From positions 1-37,594 of the forward strand of contig JANXZQ010000499.1 in the NCBI GenBank assembly GCA_025355445.1: DNA of 37,594 bases, written 5' to 3'. The notes beneath the pieces were generated by a model that made no database searches, was not told the DNA's origin, and saw only the letters and a program-made list of their open reading frames with translations. Positions 1 to 14,358 of the stretch are shown here, in pieces. Position numbers and translations under genes: made by a program. This DNA comes from Gammaproteobacteria bacterium. GTDB lineage: Bacteria; Pseudomonadota; Gammaproteobacteria; Steroidobacterales; Steroidobacteraceae. Positions within the stretch are counted from its first letter, which is position 1. Every line of letters begins with the position of its first letter.

Positions 1-1152
1 GGTGTAGTCGCCGGTCTGCTCGACGTTGCGCACCAGATAGCCGGCAGTGTAGACCGCCTTCAAGGGGCCTAGCTTGCCATCGACGGTCAACGAAGTCATC
101 TCGAACTTATCGTTGTTGTGAGCCGGGTTGAACAGCGTGACTTCGAGCGGATTCAACGCAGCGCCGTCCGAAGCGTTCGGTTGCTGGTAAAACACCCCCT
201 GCGAATGCATGGATTGGTAGCTCTGCGCCAGAAGCACGTCCCAATCATCGTTGACCTTGTACAGCAGCTGCGCTCGTATGCCTTGGTAGGTCACCGGGTT
301 GATGTCACGGGCAGCGATACTGTTGTTGTTGAGCGAGGGACTGCCCGGGGGCACGCCGTAACCCGTCGCATCCCCCGCTGCGCAATGGCCCGCCACCGGT
401 GCGCCCACGGTACAGCCGGTGGCGTAGCCGGCATAGTGAATGCCGATGTCCGTGTCCTTGCGTGTAAACGTGGCCGGCACGTTGTCGATGTAGCCGCCGC
501 GCTGATCGTTGTAGATGACGGCGCGTACCGCCATATGTTCGGCGATCAGGGGCAGGTTCAGGACCGCGGTAGCGTCTGAATTATTATCGCCGTGGGCGGT
601 GGTGCCGTAACCCGCTTTGACGCTGGCTTCGGTCACATCGATCTTGGGTTGGTTGGTAATGTAGCGAATCACCCCCGCTTCCGCGCCCGCGCCGAACAAG
701 GTGCCCTGAGGGCCCTCGAGAACCTCGATGCGATTCAAATCGGCGGCGTAGATGTCAAGATTGCGGTTCGGCAACTGGCCCGATTGATTGTCGAGATAGA
801 TCGCGACATTCGGGAATAAGCCGGTGGAGGAACTTCCTTGGCTGGCCTGCGAGCCTGCGCTCAAGCCGCGCATGAAGACTTCGTTCTGCCCGGGCCCATT
901 GTTGGCACTGGTGACGTTGGGCAAATACTTGATGTAGTCGTCAAACGTCGTGATGTTGAGCTGCTGCAGGGCCTGGCCCGTCAAGGCTTGCATGGAGATC
1001 GGCACGTCTTGCATGCTTTGCTCGCGCCGCTGCGCCGTCACGGTGATTTCCTCGAGGGCGTCGCTGGCTCCCTCCGCGGTCGCCGCCAGCAATTTCGTGC
1101 CTGGCAGCGTGCTCAAGATGGCAGCGATCGCAATTGAGAGCTTGGAATTCAT
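1..1152 (-). CDS. TonB-dependent receptor, N-terminal part (C-terminus runs off the window start)
   Basis: Minus-strand reading from ATG at 1152: MNSKLSIAIAAILSTLPGTKLLAATAEGASDALEEITVTAQRREQSMQDVPISMQALTG...FDDYIKYLPNVTSANNGPGQNEVFMRGLS...NRIEVLEGPQGTLFGAGAEAGVIRYITNQP. TonB-box-like EEITVTAQRR and plug motifs. Absent from the ORF track because no stop lies in the window. Confidence 0.93.
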   Translation of the reverse strand, partial: MNSKLSIAIAAILSTLPGTKLLAATAEGASDALEEITVTAQRREQSMQDVPISMQALTGQALQQLNITTFDDYIKYLPNVTSANNGPGQNEVFMRGLSAGSQASQGSSSTGLFPNVAIYLDNQSGQLPNRNLDIYAADLNRIEVLEGPQGTLFGAGAEAGVIRYITNQPKIDVTEASVKAGYGTTAHGDNNSDATAVLNLPLIAEHMAVRAVIYNDQRGGYIDNVPATFTRKDTDIGIHYAGYATGCTVGAPVAGHCAAGDATGYGVPPGSPSLNNNSIAARDINPVTYQGIRAQLLYKVNDDWDVLLAQSYQSMHSQGVFYQQPNASDGAALNPLEVTLFNPAHNNDKFEMTSLTVDGKLGPLKAVYTAGYLVRNVEQTGDYT

Positions 1153-1239
1153 CACTCATCCCCGCTTGTTCATTATGTCTGTAATAATTATACTAACAAT
1201 AGGCAGACGTCAACCGCCGTTGTTTTCCTGTCACTCCCA

Positions 1240-3949: not shown

Positions 3950-4465
3950 TCATTCCCGCGTTCGGGGAGGGGCGGCATGGAAACCGCGCTCCATTTGCCG
4001 CTTCCGCCGGCACGAATCTGCCTGGACATCGACCTTCGTGCTGCCGCCGCCCGCAGCGATGGTCGCCTTTGTATCGGCGGTCGACGCATCAGCGTCCTTG
4101 ATTGATGTAGCGTCCCCATAAGTGGACGTAAAGTAAACGCCCAGCAGCTTGATTTCCGTCTCATCGATCGGCGCGCCGTAAGCATGCTGCATCTTGACCA
4201 TTTCCGCCGTCCATTGTGTCAGCGACATATGCGGAGGCTGCAAGTTGATATAGTCAGCTGAATGACAGATTCCGCACTTCTGAAGCGCGATCGGATAGCC
4301 CGGCAACTCCGACGCCCGCAGTGCAACGCCTTCCGGCGGCAGCTTGATTTCGTGAATATTTACCGTTGCAGCACCTGCAGGCATGCTCAACACGAGGTTG
4401 CCAAAAACCAGAAAAACGGCTGCGCCGATGAGTCGAGGGTGGATCACCTTGCGCTTGGCGTGCAT
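3950..4465 (-). CDS. sorB: Monoheme cytochrome c, SorB-like sulfite dehydrogenase subunit
   Basis: Signal peptide, CGICH heme motif, adjacent to the SorA-like gene (SorA stop ends at 4467; ATG at 4465). Confidence 0.68.
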   Translation of the reverse strand: MHAKRKVIHPRLIGAAVFLVFGNLVLSMPAGAATVNIHEIKLPPEGVALRASELPGYPIALQKCGICHSADYINLQPPHMSLTQWTAEMVKMQHAYGAPIDETEIKLLGVYFTSTYGDATSIKDADASTADTKATIAAGGGSTKVDVQADSCRRKRQMERGFHAAPPRTRE

Positions 4466-4466
4466 G

Positions 4467-5696
4467 TTAGGCGACCACTACTTTCAGCGATTCGATCACG
4501 TTTCGAGCGTAGCCGCCGGGATTCCAACTAGCCTGCTCGGGTTGAATCTCACCTTGGTTGCTGGTGGCGCGCACACGCAGTTCCAATGGCCCGCGCTCGC
4601 GCGGAGTGATGGATAAAGACCATTGGCGAAACGAGTACTTGCCCAAACTCTCAGCCAAGCGGGTTTCGCGCCATCGCCGTCCACCATCGTCCGACAGTTC
4701 CACTTTTCTGATTCCCGTACCGCCGTCGAAGGCGATCCCTTTAACCAGCGCCACGTGCCCCATTCTCAAGATCGCGTTGTTGGATAAACTCGTGATGAAC
4801 GAACGGACTTTCAGCCGAGAAATCGGCCGTGTGGAGGCCGGCGATGTACCCGGCGCGACACAGGTGCATTCATTGTCCGGCACCCGATAGGCGGTAGTCA
4901 TGAAGAACGCGTCGTGGCCGGTAAAGGGCGCGTCGAGCACTTCGATGTCCGACAGGTGTTTAACCCAGTACGTGCCGAAGTAGCCGGGCACGACGAGTTT
5001 CAGTGGATAGCCGTTCAAGAACGGCAACTCCTCGCCGTTCATGTTCCACGCCAACAGCACATCGGCGTTGAGTGCCAGTTCGACGTCCAGCGCCTTGATG
5101 AAGTCTGGCGTACTGGGCAATACCGGCGTATCCAATCCGTTGAAGGTCACCTGTTTCGCGTTGGCAGCAATACCGGCCTTCTCGAGCACGGCTTTTAGCG
5201 GCACGCCCACCCATCGCGCATTGCCCATGGAGCCGTTGCCGAGTTGGGCGCCGAACACCCGCGGAGTCGAGTAGCCGCGGCTGTTGCCGGAGCACTGATT
5301 GACCGCCGCGATTTCTACGTGTGCCCCCATCGCCTTGATCTCATCGAGCGACAGGGACAGTTGCTGCTCGACTTTACCGCGCACATTAAGTCGATAGGTC
5401 GCAGGATCGATCGACAGAGGAATGTTGGCCAAGTGGTAGCGCACAAAAAAGGCGTCGTTCGCAGTGACGGCGCCCTCGTTGAAGGCAGCGAATGGAGTCT
5501 CTAAATGCGGAGGTCGCGTCGTGATGCGCAGCAGCGGCCGTTTCTGCGGGTAAGCGATGAGTTCCCGGGTGCCGTTATCAAACGGGAGACTTTCTGTTGC
5601 AGCAAACCCGCGCCGGGCGAGCCCGAGCGCCGAGAGTCCGGCGATGGAGTCACGCAAGAATCGGCGACGACCCATACCGTTGAGGAGCGTTTGCAT
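4467..5696 (-). CDS. sorA: SorA/SoxC-like sulfite oxidase-family molybdopterin oxidoreductase, Tat-exported
   Basis: Tat motif GRRRFLRDSIAGLSALGLA; Moco-ligand region AAVNQCSGNSRGYSTP; Mo-co dimerisation domain KVRSFITSL...GIAFDGGTGIRKVELSDDGG. Confidence 0.85.
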   Translation of the reverse strand: MQTLLNGMGRRRFLRDSIAGLSALGLARRGFAATESLPFDNGTRELIAYPQKRPLLRITTRPPHLETPFAAFNEGAVTANDAFFVRYHLANIPLSIDPATYRLNVRGKVEQQLSLSLDEIKAMGAHVEIAAVNQCSGNSRGYSTPRVFGAQLGNGSMGNARWVGVPLKAVLEKAGIAANAKQVTFNGLDTPVLPSTPDFIKALDVELALNADVLLAWNMNGEELPFLNGYPLKLVVPGYFGTYWVKHLSDIEVLDAPFTGHDAFFMTTAYRVPDNECTCVAPGTSPASTRPISRLKVRSFITSLSNNAILRMGHVALVKGIAFDGGTGIRKVELSDDGGRRWRETRLAESLGKYSFRQWSLSITPRERGPLELRVRATSNQGEIQPEQASWNPGGYARNVIESLKVVVA

Positions 5697-5767: not shown

Positions 5768-7051
5768 CTAGCAACGCGCGACGGGCTCCTCAACGCGGAT
5801 CGCGACCCAAGCAAACGCCGCCACCAGTGCCGCACCCACACCGATATTGAACGCCGTGGTCCATTGTTGATGTCCTGACAGGTAGGCCACGACCGGGATG
5901 CCGATCGCGCCGGCCAGAGAGCCGCCGGTGTTCATGAAGCCGCTTACGATCATGGTGTCGCGGCGCCCCAAGGTCATGGCCGCGCCCCAGAACGCGCCTT
6001 CAGTAAGTTCGATGCAGCCGAAGCACAGCGCCAACGCCGCCACCGCCCAGTAGGCACCGGTGGCATTCACCCCAAGCCACAGCAAAGCCGCAGCCGTCGG
6101 CAGTGCCAGCAGCGGCACCAACCGGTAGCCGGCGAGCACGCCGAAGCGCTTGCACGCCAGTCCGGTCAACAGACCTCCCAAGCCCGAGCCCACCGCCGCC
6201 GCCAGCGGCGGCACTCCCGCCAGCCAGCCGCTCTCGAGCACGGACAGATGCCGCTCTTGCACCAAATACAGAAACGCCCAATTGCCGAGCAGGTAGAAGG
6301 CGTAGTTCATGGATAGGTACGCGAAGAACAGCAGCAGCACGTTACGATTGGCGAGGATACGGATGACTTGTTTCGCACCGGCTGCCGGCCGTACGCTCTC
6401 GACGTGATCGCCGATGTCCTGCAATTCCTGCGGCGACACCCCCGCGTGTTGGCACGGACTGTCCCGGCCGTACGCCGCCCACCAGCCGATCAGGAGCAAC
6501 GCCGGCAACGTAGTCCAAAAGAGCGCGTTGCGCCAGCCGAACGAATTCATCAAGGTGGCGATCAGCGGCGGCGTAGCGGCGGCGCCCAATTGCAGGCCCA
6601 TGGTCTGCAGCCCCACCACATAGGCCCATCGATGCGGAGGAAACCATGCGCGAAACAGCCCGGCCGACACCGGGAACGTGGCCGCCTGCGCAGTGCCGAG
6701 CAGCAGTTGCAGCACCAACAGGACGGCAAACAATTGGACGCCGTGAAACGCCGAGGGTGCCACCGGAGTTAGGATCATGGCGACGAACGCCGTCAATCCC
6801 ATGACCACCAATGCGCGCCGCGAGCCGAAGCGTTCGGCCAGCGCGCCGATCGGAATCTGAAACACCGTATAGCCAATGACGAAGGCTTGCTCGAGCCAGC
6901 CGATCTGCAATTGGCTCAAACCCAGTTGCGGCATCATCGGCTCAGCGGCGACAGTGATGCTCTTCTGCTGCAGATAGGCGATGAAGCCGAACCCGAATAG
7001 GAACGCGAAAATCTTCCAGCGCACCCAGCTTGCGGGGGCGGCGCGAATCAC
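5768..7051 (-). CDS. MFS transporter (anion:cation symporter-like)
   Basis: About 12 hydrophobic segments; WLEQAFVIGYTVFQIPIGALAERFGSRRALV typical of MFS loop 2-3. GTG start overlaps the upstream stop (GTGA). Confidence 0.9.
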   Translation of the reverse strand: MIRAAPASWVRWKIFAFLFGFGFIAYLQQKSITVAAEPMMPQLGLSQLQIGWLEQAFVIGYTVFQIPIGALAERFGSRRALVVMGLTAFVAMILTPVAPSAFHGVQLFAVLLVLQLLLGTAQAATFPVSAGLFRAWFPPHRWAYVVGLQTMGLQLGAAATPPLIATLMNSFGWRNALFWTTLPALLLIGWWAAYGRDSPCQHAGVSPQELQDIGDHVESVRPAAGAKQVIRILANRNVLLLFFAYLSMNYAFYLLGNWAFLYLVQERHLSVLESGWLAGVPPLAAAVGSGLGGLLTGLACKRFGVLAGYRLVPLLALPTAAALLWLGVNATGAYWAVAALALCFGCIELTEGAFWGAAMTLGRRDTMIVSGFMNTGGSLAGAIGIPVVAYLSGHQQWTTAFNIGVGAALVAAFAWVAIRVEEPVARC

Positions 7052-8088
7052 CCCGACGCCGGCACGCCCTGCGGCTGTTGCTGCTGGATCAGCTGCGCAA
7101 TGCGCCGCCGAAACCGCAGGGGCGCGGCATCGATGGCGATGTCGATGTTCGGCGTGCGCGTGTCGGCAAAGCTCTGCTGCACGGCATTCAATATCGCTCG
7201 GTCTTCCTCGAATGCGCTCTTGACCCCCTCTCCGAGCAAGGACGACAGCTGCTCGTCATTCGGGAACACATTGCGCATCTGAAACCAAAAGTAACGGGTA
7301 TGGCCGGCATCGACAGGGGTCAGAAAGTTGTACGAGTCCATGATGAAGGCAGCGGCGCGCCGTTCCGCATCCACGCCGCCTTCGCCCGCCGGCACGAACA
7401 CCGCCTTGATAAGGGCGTGACTTGGGTAGCGGACTTCATAGTGCTGCAGTCGATCGCACAACCCCTGAAACGGCATGAAAGGCACATAAATGGGTGCCAC
7501 CTCGACCGCGTTCATCCAGCGCGACGCGATCACGCCGCTCTCGGAAGCCGCCACCTGCACCGGCGTGGACTCGCAGGCCGCATTGCCGAACGAGCTGCGA
7601 TGCACCCAGGCCACGTGCGACGGGTCGAGCAGATTGTCCGTCATGTACAGGTAATTGCAGTCCACCGTCATCGCATCTCCTTGGGTCATGCCCCAGGACG
7701 GATGGCCCCAATGCTCGACGCGGAATATCGTGGACGCATCCGCACGCTCCGCGCTGCCCATCCAGATCCAGAGCAAGCCATAGCGGGAGACCACGGGATA
7801 GCTGCGCACCCGTGCCCTCTTGGGGATGCGGTCCGCGCAGGGCATCCGCACGCACTCGCCCGTAGCGTTGTATACCAGGCCATGGTAGCCGCATTCGATG
7901 TCGTCGCCCTGAATGCGTCCCATGGAGAGCGGCAGCTTGCGGTGCGCGCAGGCATCTTCCAGCGCCACCGCAGTGCCGTCGGTCTGGCGGTACAGAACGA
8001 TCCTCTCGTTCAGGATTTTGATCGGCAGGGGCAGATTGGTCAGTTCGCGATCCATCGCCGCCACGTACCACGCATCGAATAGGAACAT
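7048..8088 (-). CDS. Rieske non-heme iron oxygenase, VanA (vanillate O-demethylase oxygenase)-like
   Basis: Rieske motif CAHRKLPLSMGRIQGDDIECGYHGLVY; mononuclear iron motif DNLLDPSHVAWVH. Start ATG at 8088 within TGATG. Confidence 0.9.
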   Translation of the reverse strand: MFLFDAWYVAAMDRELTNLPLPIKILNERIVLYRQTDGTAVALEDACAHRKLPLSMGRIQGDDIECGYHGLVYNATGECVRMPCADRIPKRARVRSYPVVSRYGLLWIWMGSAERADASTIFRVEHWGHPSWGMTQGDAMTVDCNYLYMTDNLLDPSHVAWVHRSSFGNAACESTPVQVAASESGVIASRWMNAVEVAPIYVPFMPFQGLCDRLQHYEVRYPSHALIKAVFVPAGEGGVDAERRAAAFIMDSYNFLTPVDAGHTRYFWFQMRNVFPNDEQLSSLLGEGVKSAFEEDRAILNAVQQSFADTRTPNIDIAIDAAPLRFRRRIAQLIQQQQPQGVPASG

Positions 8089-9281
8089 CACTGAACCTCG
8101 CCGGCGCAGCTTCCAGGGTCGCGCTCATTCGCTTCACCAAGCCGTCGCGCCATGTACTGAACCAAGTCCCAGACCGTACCCTCGTAGTCGTCGGGCGCCA
8201 GCGGCCCCGGCCTATGGGACGGACTGTGTAGTCCTATTTGCAGCCTCTCCAGCTGAGCTCGATCCTCGTCGCAGAATGCCTTGCAAAAGCGCACGTACGC
8301 CATCACTTCCGCCGCCTGCGGATTGTCAGGCACGCCGGTCACGCCCCAGCGCACACCCACCCTATCGGCGCTAAAGGGCCGTATACACATATAGAGAGTG
8401 AAGTGCGGACAGAAGCCGACCACAAAACTGGGATAGATGCAGTAAAAGACATCGGAGCGGCGTTCCTGGCCGGTGAGGTCCGGATGAAAAGGTCCGCGCT
8501 CCGGACAATCGGCGTGAAAGTTGGCGCGGTAGCCAGTGAATGCGGGACCGTTCGGCAGCTTCTCGCACAGCACCGTGGGCGTGATCGAATGCAGGGTCTT
8601 GGCATGCAACGGGCTCAAGTGATAGCCCTCCATGAAATTCTCCACCAAACATTTCCAATTGGTGTTCCACACCTCTTCGGCCTGGTACAGAAAATGCTGC
8701 TCGGCCGGATGGTAGTTGCGGATGAAAGGCTCGATGGGGCTCAGCTGCGGCGCGAGCGGCAACGCCCTCCCATCCAAATCGACGAAAATGTAGCCCTGCC
8801 ATACCTCGCTGGTGAACTGTTTGAGGGCGCAGTCCTGCTTGTCGAAGTTGGCGCTGTCCTTCATCAGCGGCGCGGCCACCAACCGGCCGTCGAGTGCATA
8901 GGTCCAACCATGATAGGCGCAGGTCAAACGCGCCGTGCTCCCCGCGCCTTGCATGACGGGGCTGCCGCGATGCCGGCATACATTGGCCAGCACCTTGACG
9001 GTCGAGGCAGTGTCTCTCACCACCAGCAGCAGCTCATCGATGAACTCGGTGGTGAAGTAATCGCCGACGTTGGGAATCGCGCCCACATGCCCGACGCATA
9101 TCCAGGCGTCGCGAAACAATCGGTCGCGTTCGAGCTTTAGGTAGTCGGGCGAGGTATAGAAGCCGGCGGACAGGGTCCGGGCTTGAGTGCGAGGCAATTG
9201 ACTCAAGGATGCCAATTCCGCACGGAGCCTTCGCACCGTCGGCGACGCTGCTCCATCGGCATGAGTATCAGTCAAGGCCAT
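8088..9281 (-). CDS. Aromatic ring-hydroxylating oxygenase alpha subunit (Rieske)
   Basis: Rieske motif CRHRGSPVMQGAGSTARLTCAYHGWTY; iron-site ENFMEGYHLSPLH. Start ATG at 9281 within TGATG (ORF track extends to 9308). Confidence 0.92.
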   Translation of the reverse strand: MALTDTHADGAASPTVRRLRAELASLSQLPRTQARTLSAGFYTSPDYLKLERDRLFRDAWICVGHVGAIPNVGDYFTTEFIDELLLVVRDTASTVKVLANVCRHRGSPVMQGAGSTARLTCAYHGWTYALDGRLVAAPLMKDSANFDKQDCALKQFTSEVWQGYIFVDLDGRALPLAPQLSPIEPFIRNYHPAEQHFLYQAEEVWNTNWKCLVENFMEGYHLSPLHAKTLHSITPTVLCEKLPNGPAFTGYRANFHADCPERGPFHPDLTGQERRSDVFYCIYPSFVVGFCPHFTLYMCIRPFSADRVGVRWGVTGVPDNPQAAEVMAYVRFCKAFCDEDRAQLERLQIGLHSPSHRPGPLAPDDYEGTVWDLVQYMARRLGEANERDPGSCAGEVQ

Positions 9282-10786
9282 CACGGCCCCGCAGCAATCG
9301 ACAGGCACTCATCGACCAGACCCCCGTGGCGCACCTTGGCCACGATGGCGCGCATGTCGAACACGCGCTCGCCTTCCTCGCCGATGTGCAGCAAGGGAAG
9401 CAGAGTTTGGTAAATGAGCCGGGGAACCGGGCCTAGCTCGTCGATGGCAAGTTCGCGTCGCGCCATGGCCCACACCGCGATCAACATCTCGAGCGCGACC
9501 GCTTCCCATGCGCGATCGACGACGGTTTCCGTCTGGGTCACCGACAGCGGCAGCAGACTGGTGACATCCTCAACCCCGTCGGCCGTGTGCCCGACGTAGT
9601 GCAGCAGCACGGGCGCGGCAGCCGCCATCAAGGTCCCCATGCGGGCCGCACCGATGTAGTTCAAATTGATGGACAGGATGCCGCCGTCCGCGGCGCCGTC
9701 CGCGGCCAAGCCCACGGGTAGTCCGGAAAAGGGCGGCGACTGTAATTTCAGCGCACGCTCCATGCTTTGGATCGCCGTCTTGGCGAGCGCCTGCCGCAAG
9801 GCGTCCAGCGACAGCGTCGGCAGCAGCGACACCATGCTGGAGGAGGTAAATAGCTCGCCGCTATCGATATCCACCAGGGGATTGTCCGCGGACAAGTTGA
9901 TCTCCGCCTCGAACTGGGTCTTGGCCCACAACCACACTTCGTACGCGGCGCCGTTGATTTGCGTGATGCTGCGAAAGCTCAGCGGGTCTTGCAAAAATCT
10001 GGCCTCGCCCACTTGATGCAAGCGGCTGCCCTTGAGCGCACCCAACACTGTGCCGCGCGAGCGTACCTCGCCATCGCCGCGATAGCCGCCGGCGGCACCT
10101 TCGGCCTGGGCTCGTGTCCCGCCGCGGAGCCCCTCGAGCGCGGTCGCGGCGGCGAGATCGAATGCGCCGAGCAGCTGTTCGACTTCGGCGAGAACCAGGG
10201 CGCCGGCGCCGAGCGCAAAGCTGTTGTTGTCGATGAGAGAGACGGATTCTTTCGGCGCCAGCGAAAATCGATCGCGCAGGATGGGAGCGCCGCTATCCAG
10301 AGACCGCCCCAGCAGCGCCAAACTGAGTTGCGATAACGGAGTCAGGTCCGCCGTGCCGAACGAGCTGTCGAGGCGCACCTCCGGTAAGCGCGGAGCGGCA
10401 TACAACTTGAGCAAACGCTGGACCAGCACCGGCCTCACGCCGGTTCGGCCGCCGGCGAGATTGTTGATCAGCACCACCAGCATGGCGCGTACCGCGGCAT
10501 CGGGCGCGGCCGGCCCGGGAAAATCAGTCGCCTCGCTGATGATCATGCGATCGCCAAAATCGGCCATCTTGTCGTCGCCGACGTGCACGTCCTTCTGCGA
10601 TCCGATGCCGGTGGTCACGCCGTAGATGGCGGATCCCGCCGCCAGCTGCTTATCAACGACCTGGCGCGAGGCGGCGACCCGGCGCCATGACTCGGCGCTC
10701 AGATCAAGCAGTCCAGGCCCGCGGGACAGCTGCACTATCTTGGCGATAGTGAGTGCGGTCCCGTCGAATAGATGCAGCGGCTGCAT
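9281..10786 (-). CDS. Divergent HAL/PAL-superfamily lyase with Gly-Thr-Ala at the MIO position
   Basis: YGVTTGIGSQKD, INNLAGGRTGVRP, DLTPLSQLSLALLG, QDPLSFRSITQINGA, SADNPLVDIDSGE align by eye to the Lyase_aromatic family; the ASGD motif reads GTAD. Confidence 0.85.
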   Translation of the reverse strand: MQPLHLFDGTALTIAKIVQLSRGPGLLDLSAESWRRVAASRQVVDKQLAAGSAIYGVTTGIGSQKDVHVGDDKMADFGDRMIISEATDFPGPAAPDAAVRAMLVVLINNLAGGRTGVRPVLVQRLLKLYAAPRLPEVRLDSSFGTADLTPLSQLSLALLGRSLDSGAPILRDRFSLAPKESVSLIDNNSFALGAGALVLAEVEQLLGAFDLAAATALEGLRGGTRAQAEGAAGGYRGDGEVRSRGTVLGALKGSRLHQVGEARFLQDPLSFRSITQINGAAYEVWLWAKTQFEAEINLSADNPLVDIDSGELFTSSSMVSLLPTLSLDALRQALAKTAIQSMERALKLQSPPFSGLPVGLAADGAADGGILSINLNYIGAARMGTLMAAAAPVLLHYVGHTADGVEDVTSLLPLSVTQTETVVDRAWEAVALEMLIAVWAMARRELAIDELGPVPRLIYQTLLPLLHIGEEGERVFDMRAIVAKVRHGGLVDECLSIAAGP

Positions 10787-10789
10787 GGT

Positions 10790-13255
10790 CTAGAATTTAT
10801 AGGAGAGTCGCAGTCCCAGCGTACGCGGCCGATTGACCGTGACCAGGCGCACGAAGTCGAAGCCGTTGATGTAGAGCTGCGCCCGAGTGTCGCTGATGTT
10901 TTCGCCGAACAGCTCGACTCCCCAGGCGTCCTTTTTGATTCCGAGCGATGCATCGTAAGTGGTGTAGGACGGCTGGTCTTGCCGCGGCGACTCGAATGCG
11001 CCCTGGGTAATGACCGACGAATAGGAGTGCGCAGAGTGCTGCGCTCCCACCTGCCAGTAACCGTGGTAGTCGTTGAAGGGAATTTCGTAGCGAAGACGAA
11101 TGTTCCCTTGAAACGGCGGGGATTGCGCCAGCGTGCTGCCTTGGCCGTCGGTCGGGAACAGAGAGACCGGCACGCCGCTGTTGCCGGCCAATGACGGCAC
11201 TGATTGTTGCGAGCTGCTGTTCCAGGCGACTGAAGACATCAAGGCCAGATGCTCCGTGACATTGAAGATAAGGTCGCCCTCCACGCCGCGCACCCGATAG
11301 TCCGGGCCGTTGGCCGTAAATATCTGATTACCGTACAGGCCGGGATCGAATATGGCCAATTGAACGTTGTACCAGTCTTCTTGATAGATGGCGCCGTTGA
11401 ACTGAATATGGTGATTGAGCCAGGAACTTTTCCAGCCGATTTCCTTGTTCTTGAGGGTGTCGGGTGCATAGAACAGGGGTATTTCGAATTTACCGTACAG
11501 AGGCGAGTTGGGAGTGATCACGCCCTGGCCGCGGTTGAATCCGCCCGGCCTGAATCCTTCCGAATAGGTGGCGTACAGCAAAACATCGTCCGTTACCTTC
11601 CAGCTTAGGTTGACGCGGCTCTTATGGCCGGAGAACGTCTTGTGTAGATTATCCGCATCCAGGTTCTTGCCATTCTGACATTGCCCGCTCGCCACATCCC
11701 GGCAACCGTAGCCCGAATTGGCCGAACCCAACTCATAGGTATCCATGCTGTAGAGGCGGGTACCCAGCGACAGCGTCAGGCGCTTCGGCACGATATCCAG
11801 GTCGACATCGCCGAATAGCGCCTTTTGCTTGTAACCCCGGGTGATATCGTCGAAGAACACGTCGCCAGCGGGGCGTATCGATGGGTCGATCTGCGTGGTG
11901 CCGGCCAGCGGGGCCTGGCCGTTGAATCCGGCTTGCTGATTGCCGTAGAACCAATTGGTATTGTCTTCGATCTTATAGTCTTCCCAGAACACGCCAAGGA
12001 TGCCGCGGGCCCGCCAGTCGTCGGGCGTGCTCGCGCGCAGCTCATGCGTCTGGTGAGTATTCCTCTCCGAATCCTTCCACACCGCGCTCGGTGAGTAACA
12101 AATATCTTTCGCTGCCGTGCCGCCGAGCGATGGACCATCGCACTGGTAATAAGCAGCATAGACACCGCGCGCATAGGCCGTGTAGTCGGTCACTTGCGTC
12201 ACCTTGCGATCCAGATAGCCTCCGGTGTACACCAGCTTGAGCGGGCCGACGCGGCCATTCAAGGTCCAGGCCGTATCCTCGAATTGATCCTTGTCGCTGG
12301 AAGGGTTGTACTGCTGCACATTCAAATCGCCGAGCGTCGGATCAAAGGCGAACACGCCATCCGCCTCGAGGCTCTGATAGCTCTGTTGCAGCAGCAGACT
12401 CCAGTCCTCATTCATCTGATAGAGTGCCGATACCCGGATTCCCTGGTAAGTCGTCGGGTTATAGGCCTTGTTGATCAAGCCATTGTTCGACACGGTGGAA
12501 CTGCCTGGAGGCACGACACCGCCGAAGTAATCGACGATGCCGATGTCCGTCCCTGAGCGGGCGAATGTCCCTGGGACATTGTGAATATAGCCGCCCCGGG
12601 AATCATCATAGATGACTGCGCGGATCGCGAGAGTATCGGCGATCAAGGGAATGTTGAGGTAGGCGTCGGCGCTGCTGCTGGGGTCGCCGTGAGCCGTGAT
12701 CGAATAGCTCGCGTTGACTCCCGCCTCGACGGCGCCGAATTTGGGCTTGTTGGTAATGTAGCGCACGGCGCCGGCCTGTGCGCCGGCGCCGTACAGAGTG
12801 CCTTGCGGCCCTTCCAGGACTTCGATGCGTTCGAGATCCGCTGCATAGATGTCAAGATTGCGGCCCGGCAGCTGCGCCGATTGATCGTCGAGATAGACCG
12901 CCACATTGGGAAAACTGTTGACGCCGCCGCCGCCTTGATTGCCGCCTTGGGTGGTCGAAAGGCCGCGCATATAAATCTCGTTCTGACCCGGTCCCTTACT
13001 GGCCGTGCTGACATTGGGCAGATACTTCACGACGTCGTCGAAGGTTTGCACGTTCAATTGACTCAAGGTGTCTGCCGTAAGGGCCGTGATCGCGATCGGC
13101 ACGTTTTGCAGACTTTCGGAGCGGCGCGTTGCGGTCACCACCACTTCAGGAATCTCGCCGCTGCTGGCGATCGATTGATCGGCCGGCGCTGCATAGATTG
13201 CCGTGCTGCCAAGAGCCGCGGCAATTGCGAGCGACAGTTTAGTTTTGTGGCCCAT
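10790..13255 (-). CDS. TonB-dependent receptor
   Basis: Signal peptide, EIPEVVVTATRRSESLQNVPIAITALT, plug motif RIEVLEGPQGTLYGAGAQAGAVRYITNKP, C-terminal strand ending ...LRLSYKF. Confidence 0.96.
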   Translation of the reverse strand: MGHKTKLSLAIAAALGSTAIYAAPADQSIASSGEIPEVVVTATRRSESLQNVPIAITALTADTLSQLNVQTFDDVVKYLPNVSTASKGPGQNEIYMRGLSTTQGGNQGGGGVNSFPNVAVYLDDQSAQLPGRNLDIYAADLERIEVLEGPQGTLYGAGAQAGAVRYITNKPKFGAVEAGVNASYSITAHGDPSSSADAYLNIPLIADTLAIRAVIYDDSRGGYIHNVPGTFARSGTDIGIVDYFGGVVPPGSSTVSNNGLINKAYNPTTYQGIRVSALYQMNEDWSLLLQQSYQSLEADGVFAFDPTLGDLNVQQYNPSSDKDQFEDTAWTLNGRVGPLKLVYTGGYLDRKVTQVTDYTAYARGVYAAYYQCDGPSLGGTAAKDICYSPSAVWKDSERNTHQTHELRASTPDDWRARGILGVFWEDYKIEDNTNWFYGNQQAGFNGQAPLAGTTQIDPSIRPAGDVFFDDITRGYKQKALFGDVDLDIVPKRLTLSLGTRLYSMDTYELGSANSGYGCRDVASGQCQNGKNLDADNLHKTFSGHKSRVNLSWKVTDDVLLYATYSEGFRPGGFNRGQGVITPNSPLYGKFEIPLFYAPDTLKNKEIGWKSSWLNHHIQFNGAIYQEDWYNVQLAIFDPGLYGNQIFTANGPDYRVRGVEGDLIFNVTEHLALMSSVAWNSSSQQSVPSLAGNSGVPVSLFPTDGQGSTLAQSPPFQGNIRLRYEIPFNDYHGYWQVGAQHSAHSYSSVITQGAFESPRQDQPSYTTYDASLGIKKDAWGVELFGENISDTRAQLYINGFDFVRLVTVNRPRTLGLRLSYKF

Positions 13256-13422: not shown

Positions 13423-14358
13423 ATGCGCAAGATGTCACCGCTCGCGGCCGTGCGAGCATTCGAGGCAGTAGGTCGGACCGGCAGCGTGAAGCAGGCCGCC
13501 CTTGAATTGGGCGTGACCTCAGGCGCCATCACTCAGCACGTGCACTCTCTCGAGACCCATCTCAAACGCCGGCTGGTGCAGCGCAGTGGACGGGGCATCG
13601 AACTCACCGTGTGGGGACGCCTGTACCTGCCGCGGCTGGTGTCGGGGTTCGAGGAGTTGCACAAAGCGGAATTGGAAGTGGAACGGGCCGGTCAGACCAG
13701 CCGCCTGGTCATCAGCACCTATCCCTCGCTCGCCACCAAATGGCTGTGCCCGCTCATGTTTGCTTGGAAAAAGCAGCACCCTGAAGCATTCGCCATGATC
13801 GCAGGCGTCCACCCTGAACCCCGCATGGATGACGATGAGGCGGACTTTCGGATTTCGTATGGGAATCGCCACCGCCATCACGCGCGGCATATGCGCCTGT
13901 TCACGGATCGTGTGATGGTGGTCGCCAGTCCGGCCTTGGTCAAACGAGTGGGTCGGATGAAACACTCGACCGAACTGTTGCATCAGCCATTGCTGTGGGT
14001 CGACTGGGGCAACGAGTACCTCGCGCTGCCCTCCTGGCCCGATTGGTTCGAGGCAGCTGGCGTACCGGCGGCGGGAGTGTCGGCCGCACATTTGCGCCGC
14101 GACCTGGTGTTCTCACTGCCAAGCGCCTCCGTCGATGCTGCGCTCGAGGGGTACGGCTTTGCCTTGGCGCAGTATTCATTGACGGCGAGCGCCTTGGCGT
14201 TGGGAACTCTGGTTCAGGTACTGCCCCTCGAACTGCCGCTCCCTGAAGCTCACTTTCTAGCTTGGAGCAGCGCGGCACTCGATAAGCCGCTCGGCGGCGC
14301 ATTCCATTCGTGGCTTATCAACGAAGCACGTCGCTTTGACGTTGCCTTGCGCGTTTAG
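13423..14358 (+). CDS. LysR family regulator (GcvA-like)
   Basis: N-terminal HTH: MSPLAAVRAFEAVGRTGSVKQAALELGVTSGAITQHVHSLETHLKRRLVQRSGRGIELT. Confidence 0.92.
   Translation: MRKMSPLAAVRAFEAVGRTGSVKQAALELGVTSGAITQHVHSLETHLKRRLVQRSGRGIELTVWGRLYLPRLVSGFEELHKAELEVERAGQTSRLVISTYPSLATKWLCPLMFAWKKQHPEAFAMIAGVHPEPRMDDDEADFRISYGNRHRHHARHMRLFTDRVMVVASPALVKRVGRMKHSTELLHQPLLWVDWGNEYLALPSWPDWFEAAGVPAAGVSAAHLRRDLVFSLPSASVDAALEGYGFALAQYSLTASALALGTLVQVLPLELPLPEAHFLAWSSAALDKPLGGAFHSWLINEARRFDVALRV

Follow-up and report, generated by a model that had tools for sequence, protein, structure and literature searches.

A lyase gene within a TonB receptor and Rieske oxygenase cluster

Inspection of the window, which is the whole analysed stretch of 37,594 nucleotides (contig JANXZQ010000499.1 of assembly GCA_025355445.1, a gammaproteobacterium of the Steroidobacteraceae), revealed five minus-strand genes that overlap or lie a few bases apart, encoding a TonB-dependent receptor, a lyase, two Rieske oxygenases and an MFS transporter (Table 1). 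The lyase reading frame is uninterrupted and is matched nearly end to end by the PF00221 profile (E 1.6e-75; 255 bits against a cut-off of 27.3). With the HutH model TIGR01225, however, it scores 162.9 bits, far under the equivalog cut-off of 539.15, and a separate HutH gene is present elsewhere in the same genome. The MIO group is a built-in cofactor that is normally made from an Ala-Ser-Gly loop in enzymes of the histidine ammonia-lyase (HAL) type. By alignment, the protein is akin to histidine ammonia-lyase, but one residue of this loop has been lost.

Table 1. Coordinates of the cluster genes and of selected positions of the lyase in the window.
Feature	Position	Strand	Basis and remarks
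MFS transporter	5768..7051	-	PF07690 1.9e-43; orthologues adjoin the lyase in L011 and L014
Rieske oxygenase 2, VanA/DdmC-type	7048..8091	-	PF19112 1.5e-44; DdmC 4.6e-39; 4-bp overlap with neighbour
Rieske oxygenase 1	8088..9308	-	Start overlaps lyase stop; CntA nearest solved relative
Aromatic-amino-acid-lyase-family protein, 501 aa, probably MIO-less	9281..10786	-	PF00221 profile match
Glu406, equivalent of HAL Glu414 and ergothionase Glu411, kept	9569..9571	-	Alignment
Tyr377, at the Lys (QK) position of ergothionase-like proteins	9656..9658	-	Alignment
Q266DPLSFR272, Gln and Arg kept, HAL Tyr280 replaced by Leu as in ergothionase	9971..9991	-	Alignment
Asp186-Asn-Asn188, for HAL Asn195-Gly-Thr	10223..10231	-	Alignment
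Shortened MIO loop S142-F-G-T-A-D147	10346..10363	-	Alignment; one residue shorter than HAL SVGASGD
Glu85, for HAL/ergothionase His83	10532..10534	-	Alignment; invariant in five orthologues
Tyr55, equivalent of HAL/ergothionase Tyr53, kept	10622..10624	-	Alignment
TonB-dependent outer-membrane receptor, first gene of the operon	10790..13255	-	Ends just ahead of lyase ATG; orthologues L011-L013
LysR-type regulator, divergent from the operon	13423..14358	+	Orthologues L011-L013

Homologues were sought in overlapping samples of 98 relatives, 217 family genomes, 396 order genomes and 369 class genomes, and in one scan of an 84,980-species genome collection. All these searches together yielded five intact copies (the window and loci L011, L012, L013 and L014) and one decayed copy, so that this type of lyase is rare. 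The four other intact homologues share 60-75% identity with the window lyase, and the decayed copy (L015:10001-10651) is devoid of residues 148-429. The named host genomes are metagenome-assembled, and their titles suggest palsa, bog and other environmental samples. A search of viral contigs gave no relative of the lyase; matches on plasmids were all below 60% identity (the best-ranked at about 30%), the annotated ones being HAL-type. One match at 4e-52, a PF00221 protein with a GACGD loop and Cys where the MIO-forming Ser stands (L064:545-2080, minus strand), was set aside as it is MIO-type-like by motif and unlike the window lyase.

The gene setting recurs with the lyase. The TonB receptor gene adjoins it in the window, L012, L013 and L014 (a different TonB type in the last). 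Rieske 1, Rieske 2 and the LysR gene each occur at four loci out of five, the MFS gene at three. A carboxylesterase gene adjoins the cluster in L012 and L013, and a betaine-type ABC transporter is absent from the cluster. Immediately downstream of the MFS gene (3950-5696, minus strand), the window also encodes a SorA sulfite dehydrogenase, which scores above cut-off at 637 bits, together with a CxxCH protein. At the window edge (1-1155, minus strand) stands another TonB receptor gene, whose product belongs to the same subfamily and is about 50% identical to the receptor type of the cluster.

Carnitine monooxygenase CntA (6y8j/6y9c) is the best PDB match of Rieske 1 (9e-32), and the GbcA model matches at 6.5e-42. 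The NFxExYH arrangement is shared as well, with Glu at the bridging position (NFMEGYH in Rieske 1, NYMECYH in CntA), and a bridging Glu is a feature of the group V, quaternary-ammonium Rieske oxygenases (PMC7948474). The Cys-X-X-Cys pair after the bridging Glu, which occurs in some group V enzymes (PMC10952381), is on the other hand absent from Rieske 1. Its Phe at the position of CntA Tyr203 also aligns with a Phe of the ordinary dioxygenase 2ckf.

The shortened loop and the active-site positions

The loop region of the lyase reads LDSSFGTADLTPL. The minus-strand translation of 10319-10390 is RLPEVRLDSSFGTADLTPLSQLSL, as the first-pass annotation had it, and lies inside the intact frame. The accompanying claim that Gly-Thr-Ala takes the place of Ala-Ser-Gly proved to be a register error, off by one: HAL SVG-ASG-DLAPL corresponds to SFG-TA-DLTPL, with two residues from the conserved Gly to the Asp in the lyase and three in HAL. 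As aligned, the change is thus a deletion of one residue and not a three-for-three swap. No A[STC]G triad occurs anywhere along the 501 residues, which includes the rest of this loop, where a canonical Ala-Ser-Gly could have been overlooked. The loop is GTAD in the window, L011, L012 and L013, GVAD in L014 and GSAD in the decayed L015. The shortening can be regarded as neither chance nor a private mutation, because all four other intact homologues carry it and dN/dS between the window lyase and L011, its nearest homologue, is about 0.13 (dS was saturated for several distant homologue pairs); nor does the lyase fall within the HutH clade. While the shortening is directly legible, we infer from it that the protein almost certainly lacks MIO.

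The earlier suggestion of a methylated, MIO-like group made from the loop Thr is disfavoured accordingly. It would describe a conventional ammonia-lyase or aminomutase, and Thr does stand in the loop of four of the five homologues. Nevertheless, the Thr position can be Val, as in L014, from which a dehydrated methylated MIO cannot form, the triad is one residue short, and the clade is MIO-less where characterised, leaving this explanation highly improbable.

The motifs YGVTTG, LIDNNS and QDPLSFRS were all recovered in the lyase as first described. The replacement of Tyr by Leu in QDPLSFR is real; it is not peculiar to this protein, however, being common to ergothionase, as is the short loop. 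The residue roles considered here for HAL are general family knowledge, Tyr53 being the catalytic base in both HAL and ergothionase. The lyase resembles HutH in family, fold and the equivalents of Tyr53, Gln277, Arg283 (Gln266 and Arg272 in the lyase) and Glu414, and differs from it in the missing Ala-Ser-Gly, and hence presumably MIO, and in the replacement of His83, Asn195, Tyr280 and Phe329, the last by Met318. The Tyr280 position is Met in L014, and Asn195-Gly-Thr has become Asp-x-Asn invariantly across the five copies. Since Tyr55, Gln266, Arg272 and Glu406 are kept, residues able to perform acid/base elimination would be present; this set is invariant in the five full-length copies.

Another departure lies further along the chain. 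Every complete ergothionase-like sequence sampled carries a QK motif, where the present type has Asn/His-Tyr preceded by a two-residue insertion near 374, and in the window lyase lysine is missing from the whole stretch between residues 347 and 484. The part predicted to read the substrate ring therefore differs, on alignment, from both HAL and ergothionase. An AlphaFold model built from five sequences gave a recognisable fold (pTM 0.73, mean pLDDT 66) with pLDDT below 50 over residues 143-148, and residue distances are left out because of this poor active-site confidence.

Kinship with ergothionase

Treponema denticola ergothionase (6s7j) is the top PDB match of the lyase by sequence (E 1.1e-35) and by profile search (1.8e-54), and ranks first in a fold search with the AlphaFold model; HAL, PAL, TAL and the aminomutases rank below it in all three. 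Ergothionase, an enzyme that releases trimethylamine, is devoid of MIO (PMC13405746). The resemblance to this enzyme (6s7j/6s7q) extends over the fold, the want of Ala-Ser-Gly, a loop equally one residue short (GEGD against GTAD), QDPLSFR with Leu for Tyr280, and the equivalents of Tyr53 and Glu411. Identity is nonetheless only about 25%, the Lys is missing, His83 has become Glu, the two-residue insertion is extra, and the hosts have no partner thiourocanate hydratase.

A survey of 399 Pseudomonadota genomes added short-loop PF00221 lyases with GAAD or GAGD (L024-L031) and a class with the motif GSVG-YL-[ST]HMAH. The former share with the window lyase the G-x-A-D loop and QDPLS[YF]RC and have the highest outside identity to it (29-30%), but they retain the QK lysine. 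In a tree computed with the loop columns removed, the window lyase, ergothionase and the GAAD/GAGD lyases form one clade (100/100), the MIO-bearing side being represented by the HAL-type clade only. Forcing the lyase together with HAL or with the GSVG-YL class was rejected narrowly by the AU test (p ~0.044 each), and the lyase clade sits on a very long stem, at 4.3 changes per column. Membership in the ergothionase lineage is the best-supported placement on these comparisons.

The gene settings of the GAAD/GAGD lyases also differ, as betaine ABC transporter genes, OsmF-like and ProV-like, flank the two for which transporter genes were annotated (L054 and L055), in contrast to the TonB receptor, MFS carrier and two Rieske oxygenases described above. 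The L055 member lies within a hut operon, as expected for histidine-betaine breakdown. Ornithine-cyclodeaminase/alanine-dehydrogenase-family genes were seen near GAAD or GAGD lyases (L054:7176-8195 and L057:8110-9171) and may represent a linked step.

Other proteins apparently without MIO were encountered. The GSVG-YL class is a second, well-populated PF00221 class, devoid of Ala-Ser-Gly and of the next Asp, with LINGT/LVNGT and QEDH kept. Its members include L022:4128-5624 (contig C192 of the window's own genome), L014:12851-14416 (minus strand, beside the lyase homologue and MFS gene of that locus), L033-L036, L038, L039, L041, L043-L045 and L048, and in several genomes (e.g. G885, G909 and G837) a second PF00221 gene follows about 100 bp downstream. 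A third MIO-less protein of the window's genome (L004/L058, contig C522:14-952), which runs off the contig end, has an LGEGD loop and YWFNRGTG for YGxxTG, and groups with ergothionase in the tree, where its branch is long.

Proposed reaction and its alternatives

From the sequence, loop length, clade and operon we infer a chemistry, leaving group, substrate and order of steps. Without the Ala-Ser-Gly electrophile a primary amine would not be activated as in HAL, and the substrate would already bear a good leaving group, most likely trimethylammonium. Following uptake through the TonB receptor and the MFS carrier of the cluster, the substrate carboxylate would be held by Arg272 and the beta proton removed by Tyr55, upon which trimethylamine would depart to leave an aryl-acrylate product, and the two Rieske oxygenases might carry the catabolism onward. 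Hercynine, hypaphorine and the betaines of Tyr or Phe are candidate substrates. Of the options raised by the first-pass annotation, operation without MIO is supported by the loop deletion and clade membership, and a leaving group better than ammonia is the best-supported, given that ergothionase expels trimethylamine without MIO.

Taken as a whole, it is somewhat probable that the protein is an ergothionase-lineage lyase that needs no MIO and expels trimethylamine from a (hetero)aromatic betaine, probably not ergothioneine. Regarded separately, a tertiary-amine leaving group, most likely trimethylamine, is reasonably probable, because the one characterised clade member acts in this manner, and a substrate other than ergothioneine is likely. 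An aromatic betaine is further supported by the betaine-type transporters adjoining two GAAD relatives and by the closeness of Rieske 1, with its bridging Glu, to carnitine monooxygenase. Against this reading are counted the long clade stem, the AU p of ~0.04 and the cluster without a betaine-type ABC transporter; a quaternary-amine-type Rieske oxygenase is moreover not readily placed after the loss of trimethylamine.

That the enzyme is ergothionase proper, yielding trimethylamine and thiourocanate from ergothioneine or the sulfonate of it, is suggested by the nearest solved relative and by the SorAB-like genes just downstream in the window. These genes were discounted as evidence for a substrate with sulfur, as they are separated from the MFS gene by a 71-bp gap and are not conserved beside the cluster in relatives. 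Ergothioneine is moreover unlikely because the Lys and His83 are changed and each genome has one HutU-type urocanate hydratase: in all five host genomes, some of them incomplete, no thiourocanate hydratase was found, and the single urocanate hydratase of each scores as an ordinary HutU, under the thiourocanate hydratase cut-offs. Ergothionase proper is hence improbable. An MIO-less lyase acting on an aromatic 2-substituted propanoate with another leaving group (water, an acyl or glycosyl oxygen, or another amine) is less doubtful, while still unlikely; Glu85, Asp186, Met318 and the insertion near 374, which differ from HAL and ergothionase alike, are consistent with it, as are the missing betaine-type ABC transporter and the carboxylesterase gene of L012 and L013, whereas the only characterised clade member considered and the transporters of the two GAAD relatives point to trimethylamine. 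The large internal deletion in L015 might indicate a decayed, catalytically dead HutH paralogue, but with the dN/dS ratio, the invariant Tyr/Gln/Arg/Glu set and the conserved clusters this is very unlikely for the intact copies.

Overall, elimination without MIO is already known in this superfamily from ergothionase, and the novelty here lies in a pocket that diverges and in other neighbouring genes. The lyase likely represents a previously undescribed MIO-independent subfamily that Gammaproteobacteria of peatland, and probably of lakes, encode in a TonB/Rieske catabolic operon; its substrate would be an aromatic betaine other than ergothioneine, or else a molecule whose leaving group is not an amine. 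If the proposed reading is true, ergothionase would be no lone oddity, and a branch of the HAL superfamily, little studied so far, would eliminate without the cofactor through varied pockets. It would then become testable whether loss of the electrophile always pairs with a pre-activated (quaternary) leaving group. A gene class that default labelling would call "histidine ammonia-lyase" would also be recognised, and bacteria of this kind would be a further possible origin of the trimethylamine of peat and lakes.
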